DNA of 64,000 nucleotides, from the NCBI RefSeq assembly GCF_000526375.1, contig NZ_JAFY01000002.1, forward strand, positions 186,001 to 250,000. The letters are read 5' to 3'. Each line of letters starts with the position of its first letter. The stretch's first letter is position 1. Below, one piece after another: positions 33,712 to 45,797 of this stretch. The notes under the pieces are model-generated. The model made no database searches. It was given only the letters and a program-made list of their open reading frames with translations, and was not told the DNA's origin. The DNA is from Aminiphilus circumscriptus DSM 16581 (lineage in GTDB: Bacteria; Synergistota; Synergistia; Synergistales; Aminiphilaceae). The position numbers were made by a program, and so were the translations under genes.

Positions 33712-33837
33712 GGCCCTTTTTTCACAAGTGTGATCGGACAGGGAAATGTCATCCTGATCTTACCCTGACATGCTCCCCTAAAATAGGACCACTGGAAGAG
33801 TTAGAGAGTCCCACAACCAGGAGGTGCCAAAGGGAGC

Positions 33838-34104
33838 ATGAAACAACGGTTCAGCGATGAGCAGATAGTCGCAATCCTGCGTGAAGGTGAGGGTGGATCC
33901 GATTCCATTCGCGACGTATGCAGAAAGCATGCCATTACGGAAACGACCTTTTACCGATGGCGGCGCCGCTTTGGAGCCATGTCGAAGCCTGAGGTTCGCC
34001 GCCTGCGCGAGCTTGAACGGGAAAATGAGCGCCTCAAGCGCATGATGGCCGAACGGGATATCGAGCTGGACATCATCAAGGAATTTCTAGCAAAAAACTC
34101 CTGA
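33838..34104 (+). CDS. IS3-family OrfA (IS-A copy 1)
   Basis: DNA-binding subunit of the transposase, 88 residues: helix-turn-helix (DEQIVAILREGEGGSDSIRDVCRKHAITETTFYRW) followed by a leucine-zipper-like helix (RRLRELERENERLKRMM). AGGAGG lies upstream. Near its end an A-run (GCAAAAAACTCC) could allow -1 frameshifting to give an OrfAB fusion. Confidence 0.92.
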   Translation: MKQRFSDEQIVAILREGEGGSDSIRDVCRKHAITETTFYRWRRRFGAMSKPEVRRLRELERENERLKRMMAERDIELDIIKEFLAKNS

Positions 34105-34127
34105 CGGCACAGCAACGAAGGAGAGCC

Positions 34128-35009
34128 GTGACGTTCTGCATGTCGCGAGGGCTTTCGGAACGTCGTAGCTGTGCCATCGCCCGGATCAGTCGTTCCAGCT
34201 ACCGTTACATACCCGATCCCGATCGGGACGAGCAACTGACGAGCGAAATCAAGCAGATCGCAAAAGAGTACCGGCGTTACGGATACCGCCGCGTGTGGGC
34301 TTTGCTCCGACGCAGGAAGCGGTATGTCAACCACAAACGCGTGTATCGACTGTGGAAAAGCGCCGGGTTGTGCCTGCCGTCGTGCAAACGGCGCAAACCA
34401 GCCCCGAAAAGGGGGTACATCCCCATGGCGGCGCTCCATCCGAATCATGTCTGGACCTATGATTTCATGGAAGACAGGACTGCGAACGGCCGAAAGATCC
34501 GGATACTCAACGTCGTCGACGAGTTCACGCGCGTCTGCCTCGCATGTGAAGTCGCCCGCCGGTTCGACGCAAGGGCAGTGATTGCCGTTCTCGAAGAACT
34601 TTTTGCTCGAAACGGGATGCCGGAATATCTGCGTTCCGATAACGGCCCCGAGTTCATTGCCAAGGATTTGAAAAGCCGGCTTGCTTCCCGAAACGTCCGG
34701 CCGTACTACATCGCCCCGGGCTCCCCATGGCAAAACGCATATGTAGAGAGCTTCAACGGCAAGCTTCGGGAAGAATGTCTGAATCTTGAAATCTTCGCAT
34801 CACTGCTGGAAGCACAGGTGATCATCGAAAGCTGGCGCGTTTACTACAACGAGGCGCGACCTCACCAAAGCCTCGAGTACAAAACACCCTGTGAATTCCT
34901 CGAAATCTATCGGCAAGGAGTTGATGGCATGAACGACAAAGTGCGAAAAGATCTCTCGGAAGGGGAGCCCCTTGTCACCGGAGTGCTCGCCCAGAGAGTA
35001 CCGTCGTGA
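34128..35009 (+). CDS. IS3-family OrfB transposase (IS-A copy 1)
   Basis: Catalytic subunit of 293 residues with an integrase core. The DDE residues are visible in WTYDFMED, LRSDNGPEF and ESFNGKLREE. A GTG start at 34128 with AAGGAGAG is possible; alternatively the frame is entered by -1 shift from orfA. It appears intact and differs from the copy 2 protein by at least one residue near the C-terminus (Gly versus Glu in VT-VLAQ). Confidence 0.92.
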   Translation: MTFCMSRGLSERRSCAIARISRSSYRYIPDPDRDEQLTSEIKQIAKEYRRYGYRRVWALLRRRKRYVNHKRVYRLWKSAGLCLPSCKRRKPAPKRGYIPMAALHPNHVWTYDFMEDRTANGRKIRILNVVDEFTRVCLACEVARRFDARAVIAVLEELFARNGMPEYLRSDNGPEFIAKDLKSRLASRNVRPYYIAPGSPWQNAYVESFNGKLREECLNLEIFASLLEAQVIIESWRVYYNEARPHQSLEYKTPCEFLEIYRQGVDGMNDKVRKDLSEGEPLVTGVLAQRVPS

Positions 35010-35078
35010 CGTAGGGCTGATTTTCCGGGAGCTGTCGATACTAACTTTCCTCGTGGTACTCAATTTGGGGGCTGGTCA

Positions 35079-35380
35079 CGAAGCGCGAGGGAATGCATCG
35101 TTGACACTCGAACCTGCGCCGCAGCATTTGCATAGGGGAGAGTGCTGCAGAAAACCCGGATACGTTCAGTCAGCTCGGCACACGTAGCCCGAGTGAATGA
35201 TATAACATAGACATTGCTGGGAGTCGCTCCATTGGTCAGAAGATCAGCTACCCGCTTTTCAATCGTATGAGATTTGCCTGTGCCCGGGCCGGCAACAAGC
35301 CGCACCTGTGGCGCACCATCTCTGGCAGCGGCCCACTGGCGTTGCTCAGCTTGTGCTTTTTGTGCAGCGGTTATCGGCAT
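35079..35380 (-). pseudogene. UvrD/PcrA-like helicase, N-terminal fragment cut by IS-A
   Basis: About 100 residues remain of a superfamily 1 helicase: AAQKAQAEQRQWAAARDG, Walker A GPGTGKS (about 31-37), motif Ia-like SFTRATCAELTERI, and STMHSLALR. The frame then runs into the right end of IS-A copy 1 and stops within a few codons. Everything from the Walker B motif onward is lost and is not found on the other side of the element. The gene follows the MBL-fold gene by 61 bp on the same strand, so the two once formed a unit. Confidence 0.82.
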
Positions 35381-35441
35381 CCTATCACCTTCACGCGCCT
35401 ACTATTGAGACTGCATTGTCGGAAAAATCTTCTTTCGTATT

Positions 35442-36794
35442 TCACTTCATTGCTCCTTCTGACAAGACTTCAATCTCGTGCCTTTCTTTGCCAATTCTCA
35501 AAATTCGGGGAACGGCATGATTGGAGGAGTCTGTCAGACGGTCTGCGTCCATACTCTGGCGATTGGCATGTATCTGGCCCATAAACTGAGAAAACAAACC
35601 CGGCTTTGGTAGCCCCTGTGAGGGATAGGGATAGACCAAGACATGCATCGGCTTCACGACTTCTGTGAAAAGGCGACAAGCGTCTTGAGTAGCGATTCTT
35701 TTTTCTAACCTGTGCCAATACTCATGGTGCCACTCACAGCATTCCGGATGGCACCATGGACCGCAGGGACAGCAGCGGGGAAATGGGTGTCCAAAATGTC
35801 GAAGGGCCTTCCGACTGATGCCGGGACCCGAGCTACCATGGTGGGGGTATTTGAAGATATCGGCTGATAGATCGGGGAACCGCCTGGCAATCAAGTAAGT
35901 CCAGTCAGTCAGATCGCCGGGGAAGAGCATGGTTGCCGGGTTGATTCCGCCAAGCACGTGAATCTTGGTAACGATGCTCAGGTTATTGTAGAGGGTGCCC
36001 AGCATTGAAATAGGCAGGTATTCGTGGTTGTTTGAAACTTCCTCTTCTTCGGGGGAGAGATTATCTGACTCCTCGGGTGTATCGGGTGTAGCCAATGGTA
36101 CGGGGATGGCTTCAGAGCCTAGGGAATTAAATCCATCCAGGCGCTCGCCTAACAAGGATTGCTCCTTTGATACAGTAATTTTGTGAGCAAGACATGGCCG
36201 TTGGTTCTCAATATTTTCTCTATTTTCTCTTGCCCATTCTGGAGGCATCCAGTCTGCAGGCCATTTCTTCGCCAGAAGCTCCCTAATCCGTGTTGGTGAA
36301 TGGAGCTCGTTGTAGAATCCATCCCATGGGTAAAGTACTTCAATGTAAAGACTGCCAAGAGTGAACCTATGCCCTGCTGACACCTGAAGTGTGAGTACAT
36401 TCTTCTCGCCAAGCGTCTTCAAAATCTTATCCATACCATCGAGCGTTCGAAACAAGCACTCGTAGATAATCTTTCGGGTAGGGTCCTTCGGGCGCGGTAT
36501 CTTTCCGGTCGTGACAAACTCCCGAAGAAAAGCCAGATCGAAGCACCACACCTGCCCCAAAGAGATCAGAGGGTTGCTGAGTATGGCAAGCAAACCCTGC
36601 AAGTGATCCAAGTCAGGGTGAGAGAGGATTATGAGATCGAGGTGGTATACCCCGATGCTCTGCAGATAGGAGACAACTTCGTCCTTCGCCAGTCCGGCAT
36701 CAATCAGAACCGTATATGGACGACCCTGGGAGCGGTCAATGATGAGCGTCGCATCTCCGGCCTGCACTGGAAGCATATGGAGTTCCACTGTCAT
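35442..36794 (-). CDS. ComEC/Rec2-type MBL-fold metallohydrolase
   Basis: Protein of 450 residues without a signal peptide. The metallo-beta-lactamase fold motif is SHPDLDH (His59, Asp61, Asp63, His64), preceded by VLIDAG; later LFPGDLTD and KYPHHGSSG match the ComEC/Rec2-type family. A Glu/Ser-rich insert (PDTPEESDNLSPEEEEV) splits the domain near residues 245-265. AGGAGA lies 8 nt before the ATG at 36794. IS-A copy 2 ends only 16 bp upstream, so the native promoter is gone and expression would depend on read-through from the element. It was probably co-transcribed with the truncated helicase gene; a role in nucleic-acid processing or phage defence is inferred. Confidence 0.78.
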   Translation of the reverse strand: MTVELHMLPVQAGDATLIIDRSQGRPYTVLIDAGLAKDEVVSYLQSIGVYHLDLIILSHPDLDHLQGLLAILSNPLISLGQVWCFDLAFLREFVTTGKIPRPKDPTRKIIYECLFRTLDGMDKILKTLGEKNVLTLQVSAGHRFTLGSLYIEVLYPWDGFYNELHSPTRIRELLAKKWPADWMPPEWARENRENIENQRPCLAHKITVSKEQSLLGERLDGFNSLGSEAIPVPLATPDTPEESDNLSPEEEEVSNNHEYLPISMLGTLYNNLSIVTKIHVLGGINPATMLFPGDLTDWTYLIARRFPDLSADIFKYPHHGSSGPGISRKALRHFGHPFPRCCPCGPWCHPECCEWHHEYWHRLEKRIATQDACRLFTEVVKPMHVLVYPYPSQGLPKPGLFSQFMGQIHANRQSMDADRLTDSSNHAVPRILRIGKERHEIEVLSEGAMK

Positions 36795-37666
36795 AGAGTA
36801 ATCTCCTTTCTGACCAGCCCCCAAATTGAGTACCACGAGGAAAGTTAGTATCGACAGCTCCCGGAAAATCAGCCCTACGTCACGACGGTACTCTCTGGGC
36901 GAGCACTTCGGTGACAAGGGGCTCCCCTTCCGAGAGATCTTTTCGCACTTTGTCGTTCATGCCATCAACTCCTTGCCGATAGATTTCGAGGAATTCACAG
37001 GGTGTTTTGTACTCGAGGCTTTGGTGAGGTCGCGCCTCGTTGTAGTAAACGCGCCAGCTTTCGATGATCACCTGTGCTTCCAGCAGTGATGCGAAGATTT
37101 CAAGATTCAGACATTCTTCCCGAAGCTTGCCGTTGAAGCTCTCTACATATGCGTTTTGCCATGGGGAGCCCGGGGCGATGTAGTACGGCCGGACGTTTCG
37201 GGAAGCAAGCCGGCTTTTCAAATCCTTGGCAATGAACTCGGGGCCGTTATCGGAACGCAGATATTCCGGCATCCCGTTTCGAGCAAAAAGTTCTTCGAGA
37301 ACGGCAATCACTGCCCTTGCGTCGAACCGGCGGGCGACTTCACATGCGAGGCAGACGCGCGTGAACTCGTCGACGACGTTGAGTATCCGGATCTTTCGGC
37401 CGTTCGCAGTCCTGTCTTCCATGAAATCATAGGTCCAGACATGATTCGGATGGAGCGCCGCCATGGGGATGTACCCCCTTTTCGGGGCTGGTTTGCGCCG
37501 TTTGCACGACGGCAGGCACAACCCGGCGCTTTTCCACAGTCGATACACGCGTTTGTGGTTGACATACCGCTTCCTGCGTCGGAGCAAAGCCCACACGCGG
37601 CGGTATCCGTAACGCCGGTACTCTGGGGTCGGTCGTCAATAGCGGACACCAAAATATGTAAGCAGC

Positions 37667-38563
37667 CTACTGCTCTTTGAAAAATTGTTTCTCATAGGCG
37701 GCAGGGGAGAGATAACCAAGTCTCTTCTGCCGTCGCTGCCGATTGTAAAAGATTTCGATGTACGTCGTGATCTGCCGTATAGCTTCCTGCCGGGTTTCGT
37801 AACGGCAATGATGAACGAGTTCGTTTTTCAGCACACCCCAGAAACTCTCAATGGGCGCGTTGTCATAGCAGTTCCCACGGCGGCTCATCGATGCCCGCAT
37901 TTTGAACTGGTCAAGGAGTTTTCGGTAGCCCGCGGCGCAGTACTGACTGCCACGGTCGGAATGATGAATCAAACCAGCCGCAGGCCTCTTGGCAGCGACA
38001 GCGCGAAACAGGGACTGGGTGACCAGATTCTTTGTCATGCGTTCTCCCATGGCGTAGCCCACAATCTCTCCGGTAAAAAGATCCTTGTGACCGGCAAGAT
38101 ATAACCAGCCCTCGGCTGTGGGGATGTAAGTGATATCCGTTACCCAGACTTGATTCGGGGCCTCCGTGACAAAGTTTTGTTCTAAAAGATTTGTGGCAAC
38201 CGGCAGCTTGTGGTTTGCGTTTGTGGTTGCTTTGAACTTTTTGACCTGTTTGCAGCGAAGCCCCAGTTTCCTGCGAATCCGTTTGATCCGGTGAACTCCA
38301 ATGTGAACGCCGTGGCAGGCAAGCTCTTTCTGCAGACGTTCCGGACCGTAGGTTTCTTCCGTTCTTTTATGAGCCGCTATGATTTCGAGTTCGAGCCGTT
38401 TTTCCTCTTGATTCCGGGGAGAATCCGGTCGTTTCAGCCAGGCGTAGTAGCCACTGGTTGAAACCTCCAGAACCCGACATAGCCGAGGAACCGGATACTT
38501 CGATCGAAACCGCCTGATTACCGCGTACCGGACAGCGACTCCCGGGCAAAGTACGCGGCGGCT
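37667..38563 (-). CDS. IS-B copy 1 OrfB transposase (entered by -1 frameshift)
   Basis: Integrase-core frame of 299 codons including the stop: [47 protein letters not shown] and NAPIESFWGVLKNE carry the DDE residues. There is no ordinary start; it is read by -1 shift at the A-run (AAAAAAG, 38562-38568) at the end of orfA, as in IS150/IS3. It appears intact. Confidence 0.88.
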   Translation of the reverse strand, partial: SRRVLCPGVAVRYAVIRRFRSKYPVPRLCRVLEVSTSGYYAWLKRPDSPRNQEEKRLELEIIAAHKRTEETYGPERLQKELACHGVHIGVHRIKRIRRKLGLRCKQVKKFKATTNANHKLPVATNLLEQNFVTEAPNQVWVTDITYIPTAEGWLYLAGHKDLFTGEIVGYAMGERMTKNLVTQSLFRAVAAKRPAAGLIHHSDRGSQYCAAGYRKLLDQFKMRASMSRRGNCYDNAPIESFWGVLKNELVHHCRYETRQEAIRQITTYIEIFYNRQRRQKRLGYLSPAAYEKQFFKEQ

Positions 38564-38835
38564 TTTTTTAAGATATCGCGCTCCTGTTTTACTTGAGCAA
38601 GCTCTCGTTTGACGCGCTCAAGCTCCTCCTCAACCTGAGTGAGAGGCCGCCGCTCGCCGCCAATATCGGAAAGTTTTCCGGCCTTGTACGCTCTCACCCA
38701 GTTTTCCAGGGTCGACTTGGGCAGGGAGAGTTGACGCGATGCTTCATATGCTGTCAAGCCGCCTTCAATGATCATGTTGACGGCTTCATGCCGAAATTCT
38801 TTCGAATAGCGACCGTTCGTTGCGTTCTTTGCCAT
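38518..38835 (-). CDS. IS-B copy 1 OrfA
   Basis: DNA-binding subunit of 105 residues: helix-turn-helix (FRHEAVNMIIEGGLTAYEAS, LPKSTLENW), then a coiled coil (VEEELERVKRELAQVKQERDILKKAAAYF). GGAGG precedes the ATG. The reading frame overlaps orfB through the slippery A-run. Confidence 0.92.
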   Translation of the reverse strand: MAKNATNGRYSKEFRHEAVNMIIEGGLTAYEASRQLSLPKSTLENWVRAYKAGKLSDIGGERRPLTQVEEELERVKRELAQVKQERDILKKAAAYFARESLSGTR

Positions 38836-39060
38836 TCAGACACCTCCGTTTTGGTTGGATAGTAACTTTGGTGTCCGATATTTTCAACGTACCTCACTCT
38901 TTTGCGATCTGCTTGATTTCGCTCGTCAGTTGCTCGTCCCGATCGGGATCGGGTATGTAACGGTAGCTGGAACGACTGATCCGGGCGATGGCACAGCTAC
39001 GACGTTCCGAAAGCCCTCGCGACATGCAGAACGTCACGGCTCTCCTTCGTTGCTGTGCCG

Positions 39061-39327
39061 TCAGGAGTTTTTTGCTAGAAATTCCTTGATGATGTCCAGC
39101 TCGATATCCCGTTCGGCCATCATGCGCTTGAGGCGCTCATTTTCCCGTTCAAGCTCGCGCAGGCGGCGAACCTCAGGCTTCGACATGGCTCCAAAGCGGC
39201 GCCGCCATCGGTAAAAGGTCGTTTCCGTAATGGCATGCTTTCTGCATACGTCGCGAATGGAATCGGATCCACCCTCACCTTCACGCAGGATTGCGACTAT
39301 CTGCTCATCGCTGAACCGTTGTTTCAT
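39061..39327 (-). CDS. IS-A copy 2 OrfA
   Basis: Identical in sequence to the copy 1 OrfA (88 residues, helix-turn-helix plus zipper helix). It is still intact, although its orfB partner is split by IS-B. Confidence 0.9.
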   Translation of the reverse strand: MKQRFSDEQIVAILREGEGGSDSIRDVCRKHAITETTFYRWRRRFGAMSKPEVRRLRELERENERLKRMMAERDIELDIIKEFLAKNS

Positions 39328-39399
39328 GCTCCCTTTGGCACCTCCTGGTTGTGGGACTCTCTAACTCTTCCAGTGGTCCTATTTTAGGGGAGCATGTCA

Positions 39400-39555
39400 C
39401 CGCATCTGCCGAGATTTCGTAGAACCTTGCTGCGACGATCTCGCGTTTGGCGTGGTCGAGCTTGGCAACGGGATTATGGATGCGCACAAGCTCGGGCGAA
39501 TCGCCCAAGGGACCCCAGACCACGTAGAGCCAGCATTGATCTTGCCCACCAATCG
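39400..39555 (-). pseudogene. Internal fragment of an unidentified gene, possibly DUF3883-like
   Basis: About 50 codons survive between IS-A copy 2 and IS-C: QCWLYVVWGPLGDSPELVR and HNPVAKLDHAKREIVAARFY. The LYVVW...P.L..I.NP pattern recalls the C-terminal DUF3883 region of large helicase-like defence proteins, but the fragment is too short for a firm call. Both ends are cut by insertion elements. Confidence 0.4.
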
Positions 39556-39566
39556 TGGACACCGAG

Positions 39567-40420
39567 CTAAGCGGCAAATTTCGCCTCGAAGGATTCGGGG
39601 CTCAGGTATCCGATGGAACTGGAACGACGAATGCGATTGTAGTTGACGGCAATGTACTCGAAGACCGCCCGGCGCATGGCTTCCCGCGTCTGGAACCGGT
39701 TGCCGTGGATGACTTCGACCTTGAGCGAGTGAAAGAAGCTTTCGGCGCAGGCGTTGTCGAAGCAGTTGCCCTTGCCGCTCATGCTGCAAACCAGGTCGTG
39801 CCACGTCAACAGCGTCTGGTACTGAGCGGAACAGTACTGACTTCCGCGATCGGAATGGACGATGACGCCACGAGGCGTCCCTCTCCGCCACAAGGCCATC
39901 TGCAGTGCGTCGCACGCCAGATTCGCCGTTCTGCGTTTCCCCATGGCCCAGCCAACGACCATGCGGGAGAAGAGGTCGATGACAACGGCGAGGTAGAGCC
40001 ACCCTTCCTCAGTCCACAGGTACGTGATGTCACCCACCCATTGCTGGTTCGGTGCGGACGCCGTAAAGTCCTGCGCCAACAGATTCGGCGCCACGGGCAG
40101 GTCATGTTTCGAGTTTGTCGTCGCCTTGAATCTGCGTGCTGCTTTCGCCCGAAGGCCCTGACGACGAAGGCTCGCGGCCACCGTCTTTCGGTTCAGGGAA
40201 TTGCCGGACTCCTTGAAATCGTGCGCCAGACGCGGCGCCCCGTAGAAGCTTTTCCGCTCCTTGAAGGCTCTTTTGACTCGTTCGTCGGCGCCTGCCGTTT
40301 CGAGGGGGCTTTCCCCCGGGATTTCCAGGCATAATACCCGCTCCGGGCAACTTCGAGCACGCGGCACATGGTGCGCGTCCGAAATTCGCCTGAGTGCTTG
40401 TCGATGAACGCGTATCTCAC
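39567..40420 (-). pseudogene. IS-C orfB transposase, frameshifted
   Basis: Starts with GTG at 40420 overlapping the orfA stop and reads [31 protein letters not shown], then shifts frame near 40290 and continues as [43 protein letters not shown] and [14 protein letters not shown] (DDE residues). Two frames are needed for one IS3-type OrfB. Confidence 0.82.
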
Positions 40421-40708
40421 CTCAGGCTCTTTGCGAAATACGCTGCGGCTTTTTTTAGGATTTCGAGCTCTTCGGCCTTTTCGGCCAGCTGGCGCTTCAG
40501 GCGGGCGTTCTCCGCCAGAAGGCGGGCTTCGGCTTCGCCTTTTTCCTCATGAAGCCGCATCTTGCTGCGCCAGGAGCACAAAAGCGCTTCCGACACGCCT
40601 TGCTGCCGTCGGGACGCCCACGCGTTCCACGAGCTTCAGCGCCTCTTTCTTGTACTCCTCTGGATATTTGGTCCGGGTTCGCTTTTCCTGCTTCGCCTCG
40701 TTTTTCAT
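40417..40708 (-). pseudogene. IS-C orfA, frameshifted
   Basis: Reads KRTRTKYPEEYKKEALKLVERVGVPTAARR in one frame from the ATG at 40708, then must shift near 40600 to continue as SEALLCSWRSKMRLHEEKGEAEARLL and AENARLKRQLAEKAEELEI with the usual KKAAAYFAKS ending. Confidence 0.78.
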
Positions 40709-40868
40709 GATCCACCTCTGACTGGTATTGTACTCGCTTGTCCGAGTGTCCATCAAAGATGGGTAAGATCATCGAGGTCCAACCCTCCTTGAGTCATAAC
40801 GTCGACATCACCTGCTAAGTGAAGCGCTAGCGGAATTCAGTCAGGTGCATGCGGTTGTTCGCCTCACG

Positions 40869-41822
40869 TTAACCCCTGAATCTCTCGGTGAGCGTCTCGA
40901 TTTTGTCGCCATCGAGAAACACAAGGTTGTTCCGTAATGCATGGCTCTCAATCTTGTCGCATATCTTCTCGATGGCATTCTCCGTGAATTTCCCCGATGC
41001 GATTACCAACAGTTTCGAAATCCGTTGTTGCTGTCGTGTGTAAATATCGTAGAACGGCATCTTAAAGGCATCGTCTGCTTGGGTGATGATCTTGTCGATC
41101 TCCGAACCTGCGCCGCCGCCAATATCGCCGTACTTCACTTGGGCGGCCCAATGTTCGAGTTCCTGAAACTCCGTCATTCGGGCGAAGACAATGTCCTTCC
41201 CGTATTCCCGCTGTCCATGGTTGTACTTAATATTCGCGAAGCCAAGTTTCCTGAGAATGGGCAGAACAACGCGGACAGTGAACTCCGCTTCGTTTGTGGG
41301 ATCGCTCGCCTTGATAAGACGACCGCCGAGACGAAGCTCTGCCGCTCCATCGATCTCGTCCACAATCTGCTCTGCGAGCTGGATTGCGGCCTCGACGGAG
41401 TCCGCTTGGAACTCGGCACTGTACTGAAGCCAGATGTAGGCGCCATCATCGTCGTATGACTCGAAATGAACATCGCCCACCTCCGTCTGCCTTTCCTCGA
41501 CCGTAGCGCGCTTCGCTTCCATCCACGGCTTGAAGCCGATGTCACCGTCCCAGTACTTCCGTGTACCACCGTCTTTGAACTCTACACGGATTCTGTTTGA
41601 TGCGATGCGCTTTAGGCGCATGGGGATGGAATCGAGAACGACTGCGAAGTCTTCATGGAATTTGCATGGTTCGAACGCGACCGTTTTGGGTAGTTCGGAT
41701 ACCTTCAGCCCGGCAACGAGCCCCTTGGGAAGAAACCAAACTTCTCCATCGTCGGAATCCAGTCGCTCACCGTTTACGGTAATCGCTGTGATCTCACCAT
41801 GGTCATTTTGAATCTCAATCAT
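40869..41822 (-). CDS. Mrr-like PD-(D/E)XK restriction endonuclease family protein
   Basis: Protein of 317 residues. The N-terminal 165 residues are unrecognised and beta-rich. The C-terminal 150 residues look like a restriction-endonuclease fold: an acidic residue in NEAEFTVRVVLPILRKLGF (about 177-195), Asp210 in EYGKDIVF, and Gln228-Val-Lys230 in HWAAQVKYGDIGG, followed by ITQADDAFKMPF. That order (E, D, Q-x-K) matches Mrr-type nucleases. AGGAGGGG lies 7 nt before the ATG. It follows the gene split by IS-B copy 2, with a strong hairpin between them. A defence role is inferred. Confidence 0.7.
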   Translation of the reverse strand: MIEIQNDHGEITAITVNGERLDSDDGEVWFLPKGLVAGLKVSELPKTVAFEPCKFHEDFAVVLDSIPMRLKRIASNRIRVEFKDGGTRKYWDGDIGFKPWMEAKRATVEERQTEVGDVHFESYDDDGAYIWLQYSAEFQADSVEAAIQLAEQIVDEIDGAAELRLGGRLIKASDPTNEAEFTVRVVLPILRKLGFANIKYNHGQREYGKDIVFARMTEFQELEHWAAQVKYGDIGGGAGSEIDKIITQADDAFKMPFYDIYTRQQQRISKLLVIASGKFTENAIEKICDKIESHALRNNLVFLDGDKIETLTERFRG

Positions 41823-41853
41823 CGTGTTCCCCTCCTAGGCGAACGCCTGAATT

Positions 41854-41889
41854 CACCGGGCCTGCGCGAAAAGCCGCGCAGGCCCGGTG
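41854..41889 (-). terminator. Strong hairpin between the split gene and the Mrr-like gene
   Basis: CACCGGGCCTGCGCG (41854-41868) pairs perfectly with CGCGCAGGCCCGGTG (41875-41889), a 15-bp stem with a 6-nt loop. No T-run follows on the minus strand, so it may be a processing or attenuation hairpin within the operon. Confidence 0.55.
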
Positions 41890-42552
41890 GAATGATGGGT
41901 TAACGCTCGAAACCACGAGACATCGTTCTCGCATTTGTGGGCGTTGGTGGTTGAGGTTCATGATCGAGCGTCCTTGCTAACACTCGAAGACTATCGACTT
42001 CGACAACCGTGATTTCACCGCTGCCCAAAATATTCATGATTGCCCCCATGCCTCCACCACCTCCACCGTCGGGAGGGTCGTTGGCGGTGCAACGAGCCAA
42101 GACGTCAAGGTAATGTGAAAACTGCTCATAGCGCAGGCCCAGCTCTGATTTTGGGTTTAGTAGAGCCTCGCAAAAACCTGAAAGATCACGGCTGTCCTTG
42201 CGATCTTGAGAAGTTTTATCTCGAATAAAGGCATATGGCATAAACAAGAGAGTCATTGTCGAGTCTTCAAGAGGGGAAGGGAAGCACATGAAGTGACAAC
42301 CGCACGACAGCTCCGCCGCCTCTTCTGCGGTTGACTTGCTGAGCTCCTCCAATAGCTTGGTGCGTTGTGGTTTTCCAAACTCAGACTTCACCTGATGTTC
42401 GTTGCGCTTGAATTCGAAAATGAAATTCCGGCCTTTCAAATTGGCGAACAGATCACCGACAGTACGATCATCCGGAGTTTGTTGCAACAGCTGAGGTACG
42501 TTGAAAATATCGGACACCAAAGTTACTATCCAACCAAAACGGAGGTGTCTGA

Positions 42553-42870
42553 ATGGCAAAGAACGCAACGAACGGTCGCTATTCGAAAGAATTTCGGCAT
42601 GAAGCCGTCAACATGATCATTGAAGGCGGCTTGACAGCATATGAAGCATCGCGTCAACTCTCCCTGCCCAAGTCGACCCTGGAAAACTGGGTGAGAGCGT
42701 ACAAGGCCGGAAAACTTTCCGATATTGGCGGCGAGCGGCGGCCTCTCACTCAGGTTGAGGAGGAGCTTGAGCGCGTCAAACGAGAGCTTGCTCAAGTAAA
42801 ACAGGAGCGCGATATCTTAAAAAAAGCCGCCGCGTACTTTGCCCGGGAGTCGCTGTCCGGTACGCGGTAA
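42553..42870 (+). CDS. IS-B copy 2 OrfA
   Basis: Same 105-residue protein as in copy 1: helix-turn-helix plus coiled coil. GGAGG precedes the ATG. The A-run AAAAAAG at 42820-42826 is the probable -1 frameshift site. Confidence 0.92.
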   Translation: MAKNATNGRYSKEFRHEAVNMIIEGGLTAYEASRQLSLPKSTLENWVRAYKAGKLSDIGGERRPLTQVEEELERVKRELAQVKQERDILKKAAAYFARESLSGTR

Positions 42871-43721
42871 TCAGGCGGTTTCGATCGAAGTATCCGGTTC
42901 CTCGGCTATGTCGGGTTCTGGAGGTTTCAACCAGTGGCTACTACGCCTGGCTGAAACGACCGGATTCTCTCCGGAATCAAGAGGAAAAACGGCTCGAACT
43001 CGAAATCATAGCGGCTCATAAAAGAACGGAAGAAACCTACGGTCCGGAACGTCTGCAGAAAGAGCTTGCCTGCCACGGCGTTCACATTGGAGTTCACCGG
43101 ATCAAACGGATTCGCAGGAAACTGGGGCTTCGCTGCAAACAGGTCAAAAAGTTCAAGGCAACCACAAACGCAAACCACAAGCTGCCGGTTGCCACAAATC
43201 TTTTAGAACAAAACTTTGTCACGGAGGCCCCGAATCAAGTCTGGGTAACGGATATCACTTACATCCCCACAGCCGAGGGCTGGTTATATCTTGCCGGTCA
43301 CAAGGATCTTTTTACCGGAGAGATTGTGGGCTACGCCATGGGAGAACGCATGACAAAGAATCTGGTCACCCAGTCCCTGTTTCGCGCTGTCGCTGCCAAG
43401 AGGCCTGCGGCTGGTTTGATTCATCATTCCGACCGTGGCAGTCAGTACTGCGCCGCGGGCTACCGAAAACTCCTTGACCAGTTCAAAATGCGGGCATCGA
43501 TGAGCCGCCGTGGGAACTGCTATGACAACGCGCCCATTGAGAGTTTCTGGGGTGTGCTGAAAAACGAACTCGTTCATCATTGCCGTTACGAAACCCGGCA
43601 GGAAGCTATACGGCAGATCACGACGTACATCGAAATCTTTTACAATCGGCAGCGACGGCAGAAGAGACTTGGTTATCTCTCCCCTGCCGCCTATGAGAAA
43701 CAATTTTTCAAAGAGCAGTAG
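42825..43721 (+). CDS. IS-B copy 2 OrfB transposase (entered by -1 frameshift)
   Basis: Open frame of 299 codons including the stop, beginning at the slippery A-run in orfA and lacking its own start until an internal ATG at 43326. DDE residues lie in [16 protein letters not shown] and APIESFWGVLKNE. It appears intact, so this copy may be an active source element. Confidence 0.88.
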   Translation, partial: SRRVLCPGVAVRYAVIRRFRSKYPVPRLCRVLEVSTSGYYAWLKRPDSLRNQEEKRLELEIIAAHKRTEETYGPERLQKELACHGVHIGVHRIKRIRRKLGLRCKQVKKFKATTNANHKLPVATNLLEQNFVTEAPNQVWVTDITYIPTAEGWLYLAGHKDLFTGEIVGYAMGERMTKNLVTQSLFRAVAAKRPAAGLIHHSDRGSQYCAAGYRKLLDQFKMRASMSRRGNCYDNAPIESFWGVLKNELVHHCRYETRQEAIRQITTYIEIFYNRQRRQKRLGYLSPAAYEKQFFKEQ

Positions 43722-43892
43722 GCTGCTTACATATTTTGGTGTCCGCTATTGACGACCGACCCCAAGCTGCAATACGGTTTGATTCAGTTTAATTCCGCGC
43801 TGTCCTGCGAGGTAACCGAGAGTCAGAATGAGATTACCGAGAAGAATGTTTTCGTACGGCTGACGCATGCATGCTCTCCTTTGTGTATAATA

Positions 43893-43919
43893 GTTGTTAT
43901 ATGGTTTCTTCATAACAAC
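43893..43919. promoter_or_regulatory. Inverted repeat upstream of the disrupted gene
   Basis: GTTGTTAT (43893-43900) and ATAACAAC (43912-43919) are perfect 8-bp arms. They overlap an AT-rich stretch that on the minus strand reads TATTAT just before the ribosome-binding site of the split gene, so they may be its operator. A similar block, TATGGTTTCT plus ATAA, recurs at about 44021-44034. Confidence 0.45.
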
Positions 43920-43934
43920 TTTGGCCGCGACATC

Positions 43935-44430
43935 GCGGCATAAGACCTCGTCTGCAATTCTGTCGCAACACCAGCATTTGCAGAAAGTCATGCTCTGTCC
44001 CGCAATGAACACAGGGTATATATGGTTTCTGTATAAGACACCTTCGTTCCTCCTCTACAAATCGTCCGCGGGACTTTTGGCACCCTGGCCGCCCTGGTTA
44101 AGGACATGAGTGTAAATCATGGTGGGCACGATCAGCCGGTTGGATTTTCGCCCGTCAATTCAATTCCGCCTTTTCAAACAATTTCTTATGTGATTCTACC
44201 ACAACACCGCAATCAATCGCAAGCTGATTTTTCACCATTTCCACGTACATGCACGAAGAACGATAAAGTGTGATTGAAAATTGATTCTCCGCGTGAGCGA
44301 GAGTTTTAACGACAAACGGGACAGGGGAGATATCTCCCCTGTCCCGTTTTCTCTACCCTGGCGTAGCATTGCCCCGCCCCCTGGCATGTACTTTCGTCCG
44401 TCCAGCCCGGAAAAATGGATTATGCTCTAA
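43935..44430. other. AT-rich spacer between the split gene and the IS256-type element
   Basis: No gene is supported. Contents seen: a second TATGGTTTCT block near 44021 and the 36-bp palindrome at 44314-44349. Short frames here lack motifs. Confidence 0.5.
44314..44349. terminator. Perfect 36-bp palindrome with flanking A/T runs
   Basis: The 18-bp arms (44314-44331 and 44332-44349; arm begins AAACGGGACAGGGG) are perfectly complementary with no spacer. TTCTCT follows on the plus side. It could act as a bidirectional terminator just outside the IS256-type element. Confidence 0.55.
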
Positions 44431-45797
44431 AGAGTGTGCAAAAAGTGCTTGCGGAGGGGGATTCAAAAAAAGAAGGTCATGGTGTATGTAGGTTGTCTGC
44501 AGCGCACAAGCAACCCTAGCCCTTAGGAGGCGATACACCATGACCGGAAAGAAGCATAGCAGTCGTTTCGCTGGAATGAAAGCCCTTTTCGGGAACGAAA
44601 CGGACGCCCTGAAGACCCTGATGAAGGAAGTGCTGCAAGAAATCCTTGACGGGGAAATGACGGAACTCCTTGGAGCCGAACGACATGAGCGCAACACAGA
44701 ACGTACGGGTTATCGGTCAGGCTACTATACCCGAAGTCTGGTCACGCGAATCGGCAAGCTGGAACTGCGGATTCCCAGAGACCGCAACGGAGAATTCTCC
44801 ACGGCACTGTTCGAGCGTTATCAGCGCAGTGAGAAGGCATTGGTGGCGGCTCTGGCGGAAATGTATGTGCAGGGCGTGTCCACGCGCAAAGTGACGGCGA
44901 TCACCGAGGAATTGTGCGGACATCGTTTTTCCGCGAGCAGCATCAGCGCCATCAACAAAGGTCTCGATGAAGCCCTGTCTCGTTTTGCGAACCGTCCCCT
45001 TGACGAAGAGTACCCGTATTTGATTCTGGATGCTCGCTACGAGAAAGTTCGCGAGAACGGAGTTATCCGTTCCCAGGCGGTACAGATCGCCATCGGAATC
45101 AACCGGGAGGGGCAGCGGCAGATCTTGGCGGTGGAATTGGCTCCCCGTGAAACGGCAAGCAGTTGGAAAGAGTTTCTTCTCGGGCTCAAGCTACGGGGTT
45201 TGCGCGGTGTCGAATTCGTGGTATCCGACGACCACGCAGGACTTCGTTCGGCCATCGGAGAGACCCTGCTCGAAGCATCTTGGCAGCGTTGCTACGTCCA
45301 TTTTCTGCGGAATGCTCTGGATCATCTGCCCCGTAAGGCCGATGACGATTGTCTCCAGGAACTCCGCTGGATCTACGACCGCCGGGACATTATGGAGGCC
45401 CACCGGGATCTGACGTCCTGGATCACCAAATGGCAGAGGAAATATCCGAAGCTTGTTGACTGGGTGGAGGAGAACATAGAGGAGACGCTGACCTTCTACC
45501 GGCTTCCCAGAGCACATCACAAGCATCTGAAGTCAACCAACATGCTGGAACGGCTCAACGAAGAGATCAAGAGAAGGACCCGGGTCGTCCGTATCTTCCC
45601 AAACACCGATGCATGTCAGCGCCTGATACGGGCACTTTGCGTCGAAACCCACGAGGCGTGGCTGGAGTCCAGTCGCTACCTCAACATGGACCTGTTGATC
45701 GAACACAAAAAGGCACTCTTGGAAAAGTGTGGCTAATCGCCGCAGACGGCCGCCAAACACCATGAAAACCTTTTTGCACAACTTGACGCACACAACT
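44431..45797 (+). mobile_element. IS256-family insertion element (intact)
   Basis: Contains one transposase gene. The left end carries AGAGTGTGCAAAAAGTGC; the right end, as complement, carries AAGTTGTGCAAAAAGG. The right boundary at 45797 is set by the point where homology with the old remnant at 1281-1423 stops; the left boundary is approximate. No target duplication was identified. Confidence 0.82.
44540..45736 (+). CDS. IS256-family (mutator-type) transposase
   Basis: Transposase of 398 residues. Family landmarks: EILDGEMTELLGAERHERN near the N-terminus, YLILDARYEKV (first Asp), VVSDDHAGLRSAI (second Asp), and MLERLNEEIKRRTRVVRIFPN (catalytic Glu). AGGAGG precedes the ATG. Full length for the family and apparently functional. 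Confidence 0.95.
   Translation: MTGKKHSSRFAGMKALFGNETDALKTLMKEVLQEILDGEMTELLGAERHERNTERTGYRSGYYTRSLVTRIGKLELRIPRDRNGEFSTALFERYQRSEKALVAALAEMYVQGVSTRKVTAITEELCGHRFSASSISAINKGLDEALSRFANRPLDEEYPYLILDARYEKVRENGVIRSQAVQIAIGINREGQRQILAVELAPRETASSWKEFLLGLKLRGLRGVEFVVSDDHAGLRSAIGETLLEASWQRCYVHFLRNALDHLPRKADDDCLQELRWIYDRRDIMEAHRDLTSWITKWQRKYPKLVDWVEENIEETLTFYRLPRAHHKHLKSTNMLERLNEEIKRRTRVVRIFPNTDACQRLIRALCVETHEAWLESSRYLNMDLLIEHKKALLEKCG

Follow-up and report, generated by a model that had tools for sequence, protein, structure and literature searches.

Remnants of a probable Hma-type defence operon, with MBL-fold hydrolase and UvrD-like helicase genes, broken by insertion sequences in Aminiphilus circumscriptus

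Introduction

Hma, as defined by PADLOC, is composed of a helicase, a methylase and an ATPase (PMC8565338), and it was later regrouped with the type-1, DUF499-centred BREX-related systems (PMC12839542). Pairs of a gated MBL pro-nuclease and a protease are found in Hachiman, AVAST, Lamassu, DRT and Canu, and such nucleases have two inserts, by which the active site is blocked (PMC12799240). Our literature search for pairs of MBL and UvrD genes returned no direct precedent.

The window analyzed here is the whole stretch of 64,000 nucleotides from A. circumscriptus DSM 16581 (GCF_000526375.1, contig NZ_JAFY01000002.1, positions 186,001 to 250,000), where an MBL-fold gene and the beginning of a UvrD-like helicase gene lie between insertion sequences. 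We suggest that this locus is probably a dead, IS-shredded Hma-type (BREX-related) anti-phage operon with the minus-strand order hmaA, MBL and UvrD, probably followed by hmaB. A 3' remnant of hmaA in the window is shared with the Hma/type-1 BREX-related systems, and HmaA and HmaB are found around the same helicase in two related loci (L029 and L032). The window differs from those systems by the missing hmaB and hmaC and by the extra MBL and UvrD genes.

Results

Genes and insertion sequences of the locus

33727 to 45797: strain-variable segment, with the same flanks but other DNA in the sister species G001, except for a match to 43884-44417
33766 to 35078, plus strand: IS-A copy 1, IS3-type, 1313 bp, truncating the helicase
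35079 to 35380, minus strand: uvrD-like SF1 helicase, first 101 residues, IS-truncated (UvrD-helicase PF00580, E 2e-16)
35381 to 35441, minus strand: interval of 61 bp from MBL stop to helicase start, without IS
35442 to 36794, minus strand: MBL-fold hydrolase gene, 450 aa, ATG at 36794, stop at 35442, apparently intact, ribosome-binding site kept
36811 to 39399, minus strand: IS-A copy 2, inverted, interrupted by IS-B, separating the hmaA remnant from MBL
37625 to 38895, minus strand: IS-B, IS3-type, inside IS-A copy 2, one of a 1273-nt inverted pair
39400 to 39555, minus strand: 3'-terminal remnant, of about 50 codons, from an hmaA-like gene, beyond IS-A copy 2
about 39556 to 40770: further IS3-type element
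about 42492 to 43764, plus strand: second copy of IS-B, the other member of the 1273-nt inverted pair
44540 to 45736: IS256-like transposase

As the original prediction had described, the MBL-fold gene is followed after 61 bp by about 100 residues of a superfamily 1 helicase cut by IS-A, and it starts 16 bp from another IS-A, the gap running from the end of copy 2 to the MBL ATG. The helicase ATG is at 35380 and the native residues end where the IS begins, at 35078. In a consensus scan of 35060-37100, no sigma-70-like promoter was found. A ribosome-binding site (AAAGGAG) survives between the IS end and the MBL ATG. The 3-bp target duplication is absent at either IS-A copy. The GC content is 51% in the MBL and helicase genes vs 63-64% in the flanks. 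At least 6 IS copies occur within 12 kb of the window (33766-45736), being two of IS-A, two of IS-B and two others.

The MBL-fold protein

The MBL ORF contains the motifs HPDLDH, NLSIV, LFPGD and YPHHGSS. Pfam comparisons gave MBL matches, with PF00753 (E 2e-4) narrowly missing the gathering cut-off, and the best PADLOC model was LmuA (7e-12), followed by Avs1a (1e-5) and RTasMBL (1e-5, N-terminal domain only). A ComEC match (2e-8) was also obtained, sub-threshold to moderate like the other MBL-family matches, and PDB ComEC chains were matched as well. The 'ComEC/Rec2-type' label first given to the gene holds as a distant domain match and as nothing closer: TIGR00361 (ComEC/Rec2) scored 32.7 bits for a cut-off of 190, with only positions 441-513 of 663 covered. 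We rejected the identity of a competence gene, since no membrane channel domain is fused to this 450-aa protein. The alignment with ComEC-type domains revealed approximately 110 extra residues before NLSIV and approximately 30 after HHGSS. An AlphaFold model of MBL alone had a pLDDT of 36.7 and was set aside. After HHGSS, residues ~340-355 form an unusual Cys-rich stretch, RCCPCGPWCHPECCEWHH, possibly an extra metal site. A frameshift was considered there and dismissed, as the ORF stays in frame into the HP motif, and the sequence was kept as read.

With the gated MBL pro-nucleases (PMC12799240), the window protein shares the ComEC-like MBL fold with metal motifs and the position as upstream gene in a defence operon. 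It is also longer than ComEC-type domains at two points, the equivalence of this additional sequence to the known inserts being putative. It differs in that the next gene is a helicase and no protease domain is fused. We did not place it in the gated MBL-protease group because no protease was recognised among the window ORFs at 34-46 kb, and none of the trypsin or caspase type in the window.

Full-length relatives of MBL were found neither in genome_contigs, viral_contigs and phages nor in the 395 genomes of the phylum of L032 and the five genomes holding L029-L033, where the pattern-based scans detect close relatives only. Plasmids and 151 genomes of the same order yielded N-terminal domain matches and no full-length relative. 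The protein resembles defence-associated MBL nucleases by its sequence, and its putative function is read from domain matches, the collections searched having yielded no relative over the full length.

Intact relatives of the helicase

Compared with intact helicases found elsewhere, the fragment shows 71-99% identity over its 101 residues and is thus genuine and no chance ORF. A scan of viral contigs revealed a prophage helicase of 688 aa (L028) with 71% identity over the fragment, and a scan of genomes with two N-termini revealed five more relatives (L029-L033, 88-99% over the fragment), which share 85-92% protein identity among themselves at full length. Their MAGs are labelled Lentisphaera, Methanomicrobiales, Sedimentisphaerales, Syntrophaceae and Calditrichaeota (five phyla); several of these contigs are short and the labels may be wrong, so that gene order, and not the labels, carries the conclusion. 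Remoter members were found by searching the phylum of L032 (39-67%) and that of L031 (one at 43%), the genome samples being drawn from a few phyla only.

The intact relative of the window helicase contains helicase domains only. Family members score 442-1534 bits against each other, and a relative matched RTasHel with 4e-41. The likeness to the UvrD helicase GajB suggested in the original prediction is borne out by scores of up to 160 bits against GajB models, a likeness shared with Gabija. However, these scores are far below those within the family, the helicase differs by its 688 aa, and no GajA OLD/TOPRIM nuclease adjoins it, either in the window or across L028-L033; L032 has an OLD/TOPRIM-type gene, which is three genes downstream. 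Both window genes match the DRT models of PADLOC (RTasMBL and RTasHel); in contrast with DRT, no reverse transcriptase was recognised by inspection among the window ORFs, where a deleted gene is possible.

Neighbours of the helicase relatives

In L029, an hmaA-like gene precedes the helicase and a DUF1156 methylase gene (hmaB) follows it. The order in L032 is a WYL regulator, a Hel308-like helicase, HmaA, DUF6978, DUF1828, the helicase, a 439-aa gene, HmaB (9e-112) and an OLD/TOPRIM-type ATPase. This last gene differs from the HmaC of Hma/type-1 BREX-related systems, and no DUF499 gene was recognised in the 8 kb downstream. Type I genes are found upstream of the helicase in L030 (specificity gene) and L031 (fused methylase-specificity gene, with a methyl-directed REase downstream). 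SIR2 (ThsA-like) and Dsr1-like genes are downstream in L052, a weakly TIR-like gene (4e-4) is downstream in L033, and L028 lies at a prophage end with a Cas4-like nuclease 1.4 kb upstream. L051 and L054 have no evident operon partner. The succession of a 43% helicase relative, SIR2 and a large Dsr1-like gene at L052:4161-10272 is a possible three-gene defence unit.

Nine helicase relatives have sequence reaching at least 0.4 kb upstream, and an MBL neighbour was found in none of them, tblastn (E<1) and a motif scan being both empty, and known MBLs were recovered by tblastn in control loci. L053 and L082, with less than 150 bp upstream, were left out of this count. Upstream of the helicase start codon there is no evident homology among the loci, the likeness ending at that codon. 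Because the neighbours differ, MBL is absent and upstream homology is absent, the helicase behaves as a one-gene cassette.

The hmaA remnant

When L029 was used as a DNA probe, two strong matches were found in this genome, both in the window. The helicase start (35079-35391) is 94% identical to L029:419-731, and 39402-39536 is 82% identical to L029:260-394, the end of the hmaA-like gene, whose full-length counterpart in L032 matches HmaA with 4e-185. In L029, 4 bp separate the hmaA stop from the helicase ATG, and hmaB comes next. Since the two L029 stretches adjoin, an hmaA-uvrD junction is preserved in the window at its two ends, which enclose IS-A copy 2 and MBL.

Near the window, no match to the hmaB of L029 was found; the only one, of 71 bp and 75% identity, is at C2:1078436, in a separate intact Hma locus of the same genome. 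hmaC (DUF499 ATPase) was not recognised by inspection among the window ORFs, the region being deleted. The separate locus (C2:1073127-1083008, L069) has complete hmaA, hmaB and hmaC genes with no insert between the first two, and in its HmaC the DUF499 match is preceded by additional N-terminal sequence that may be a HEPN domain. Plasmid Hma operons vary between hmaA and hmaB, where RelE/HigA, an ATP-binding protein, a hypothetical protein or no gene at all is encountered.

The chromosomal site

In the sister species G001, flanks 97% identical to those of the window enclose a TIR-like gene (ThsB 8e-6), a 277-aa gene and an AriA-like ATPase (3e-72) at L068:4095-7057. These TIR-like and AriA-like genes of G001 show the site to be a defence hot spot. 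Window positions 43884-44417 are degraded and 87% identical to G001, with frames resembling the end of a tyrosine integrase (THVLN). On the minus strand, 40869-42568 holds a gene of 317 aa, weakly matching the restriction endonuclease domain Mrr_cat (8e-4, below the cut-off), and a 222-aa ORF with its 5' end cut by IS-B.

Discussion

The original order was probably hmaA (SNF2-type helicase), MBL hydrolase and UvrD-like helicase, with hmaB (DUF1156 DNA methylase) probably next, and with the MBL and UvrD genes as putative accessory cargo in the variable hmaA-hmaB interval. In an intact operon of this kind, self DNA would carry the mark of the methylase. Invading DNA lacking this mark would be the target of HmaA and the ATPase and would be processed by the UvrD helicase, and the ComEC-like MBL may have been a metal-dependent nuclease effector cutting foreign DNA. 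Today hmaB is missing, little is left of hmaA and uvrD, and the unit is dead: it cannot work because MBL is the sole complete gene.

Arguing for the Hma-type operon are the match to the hmaA-uvrD junction of L029, the HmaA and HmaB genes enclosing the helicase in L032, and the variable plasmid interval. The matches of MBL to LmuA, Avs1a and RTasMBL, the site shared with the defence genes of G001 and the lower GC content point in the same direction. On the other hand, a deletion linked to the IS could have joined hmaA and MBL, since IS-A copy 2 lies between them with no 3-bp target duplication; we infer their ancestral adjacency across the IS, which the missing duplications make unprovable. The hmaA and helicase pieces may also have separate histories, given their different DNA identities to L029. 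The absence of hmaB and hmaC from the window counts against the Hma assignment too, as does the fact that no other Hma locus with the window MBL was found.

The original prediction proposed a defence module of two genes, MBL enzyme and UvrD-like helicase, broken by an IS. Such a module, of MBL nuclease and UvrD helicase with a logic similar to Gabija, would have been located by chance in a defence island. The genes are indeed co-oriented with only the short IS-free interval between them, and DRT components in PADLOC include models of both kinds that these genes match. Its defence context is supported by the hmaA remnant and by relatives beside Hma, RM and SIR2 genes. The pairing itself did not hold up: homologues of the two genes were not found together, the context being nonetheless one of defence and not of competence. 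MBL is beside 0 of the 9 relatives with sufficient upstream sequence, has no full-length relative in any of the collections searched, and is replaced by hmaA as upstream neighbour in a close relative, while homology ends at the helicase start codon in each locus. We consider a true two-gene module unlikely. If instead the helicase were a single-gene mobile cassette and MBL a chance neighbour, maybe a ComEC-like enzyme without a role in defence, this would fit a helicase found alone or with very different neighbours as well as the ComEC domains matched by MBL (TIGR00361 and the PDB chains). It is improbable, however, with a defence model (LmuA) as best PADLOC match, long MBL inserts absent from ComEC domains and a position in a defence hot spot.

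The inverted IS-A copies flanking the pair could also suggest a composite transposon carrying MBL and the helicase piece as passengers. This was rejected as very improbable: the outer flanks, CCC and CCG, do not form a target duplication, the outer right side is occupied by hmaA, a neighbour of this helicase in L029, and only a fragment of the helicase is carried.

Beyond the probable Hma-type origin of this locus, we tentatively propose a wider role, which we regard as rather doubtful. The 688-aa UvrD-type helicase would be an accessory gained repeatedly by defence operons of unrelated kinds: Hma, type I RM, an operon of SIR2 and a Dsr1-like gene, one with a possible TIR gene and, at this locus, one with the MBL nuclease. 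In the lineage of the window it would drive a protease-free MBL nuclease, replacing the protease as activator. A single sighting of adjacent defence genes flanked by IS elements is no proof that they form a system. If the proposal is right, one helicase gene, with 85-92% protein identity among MAGs of five phyla, has been slotted beside unrelated defence enzymes, and it would add to the MBL-protease pairs a second case in which the parts of bacterial immune systems are interchangeable.
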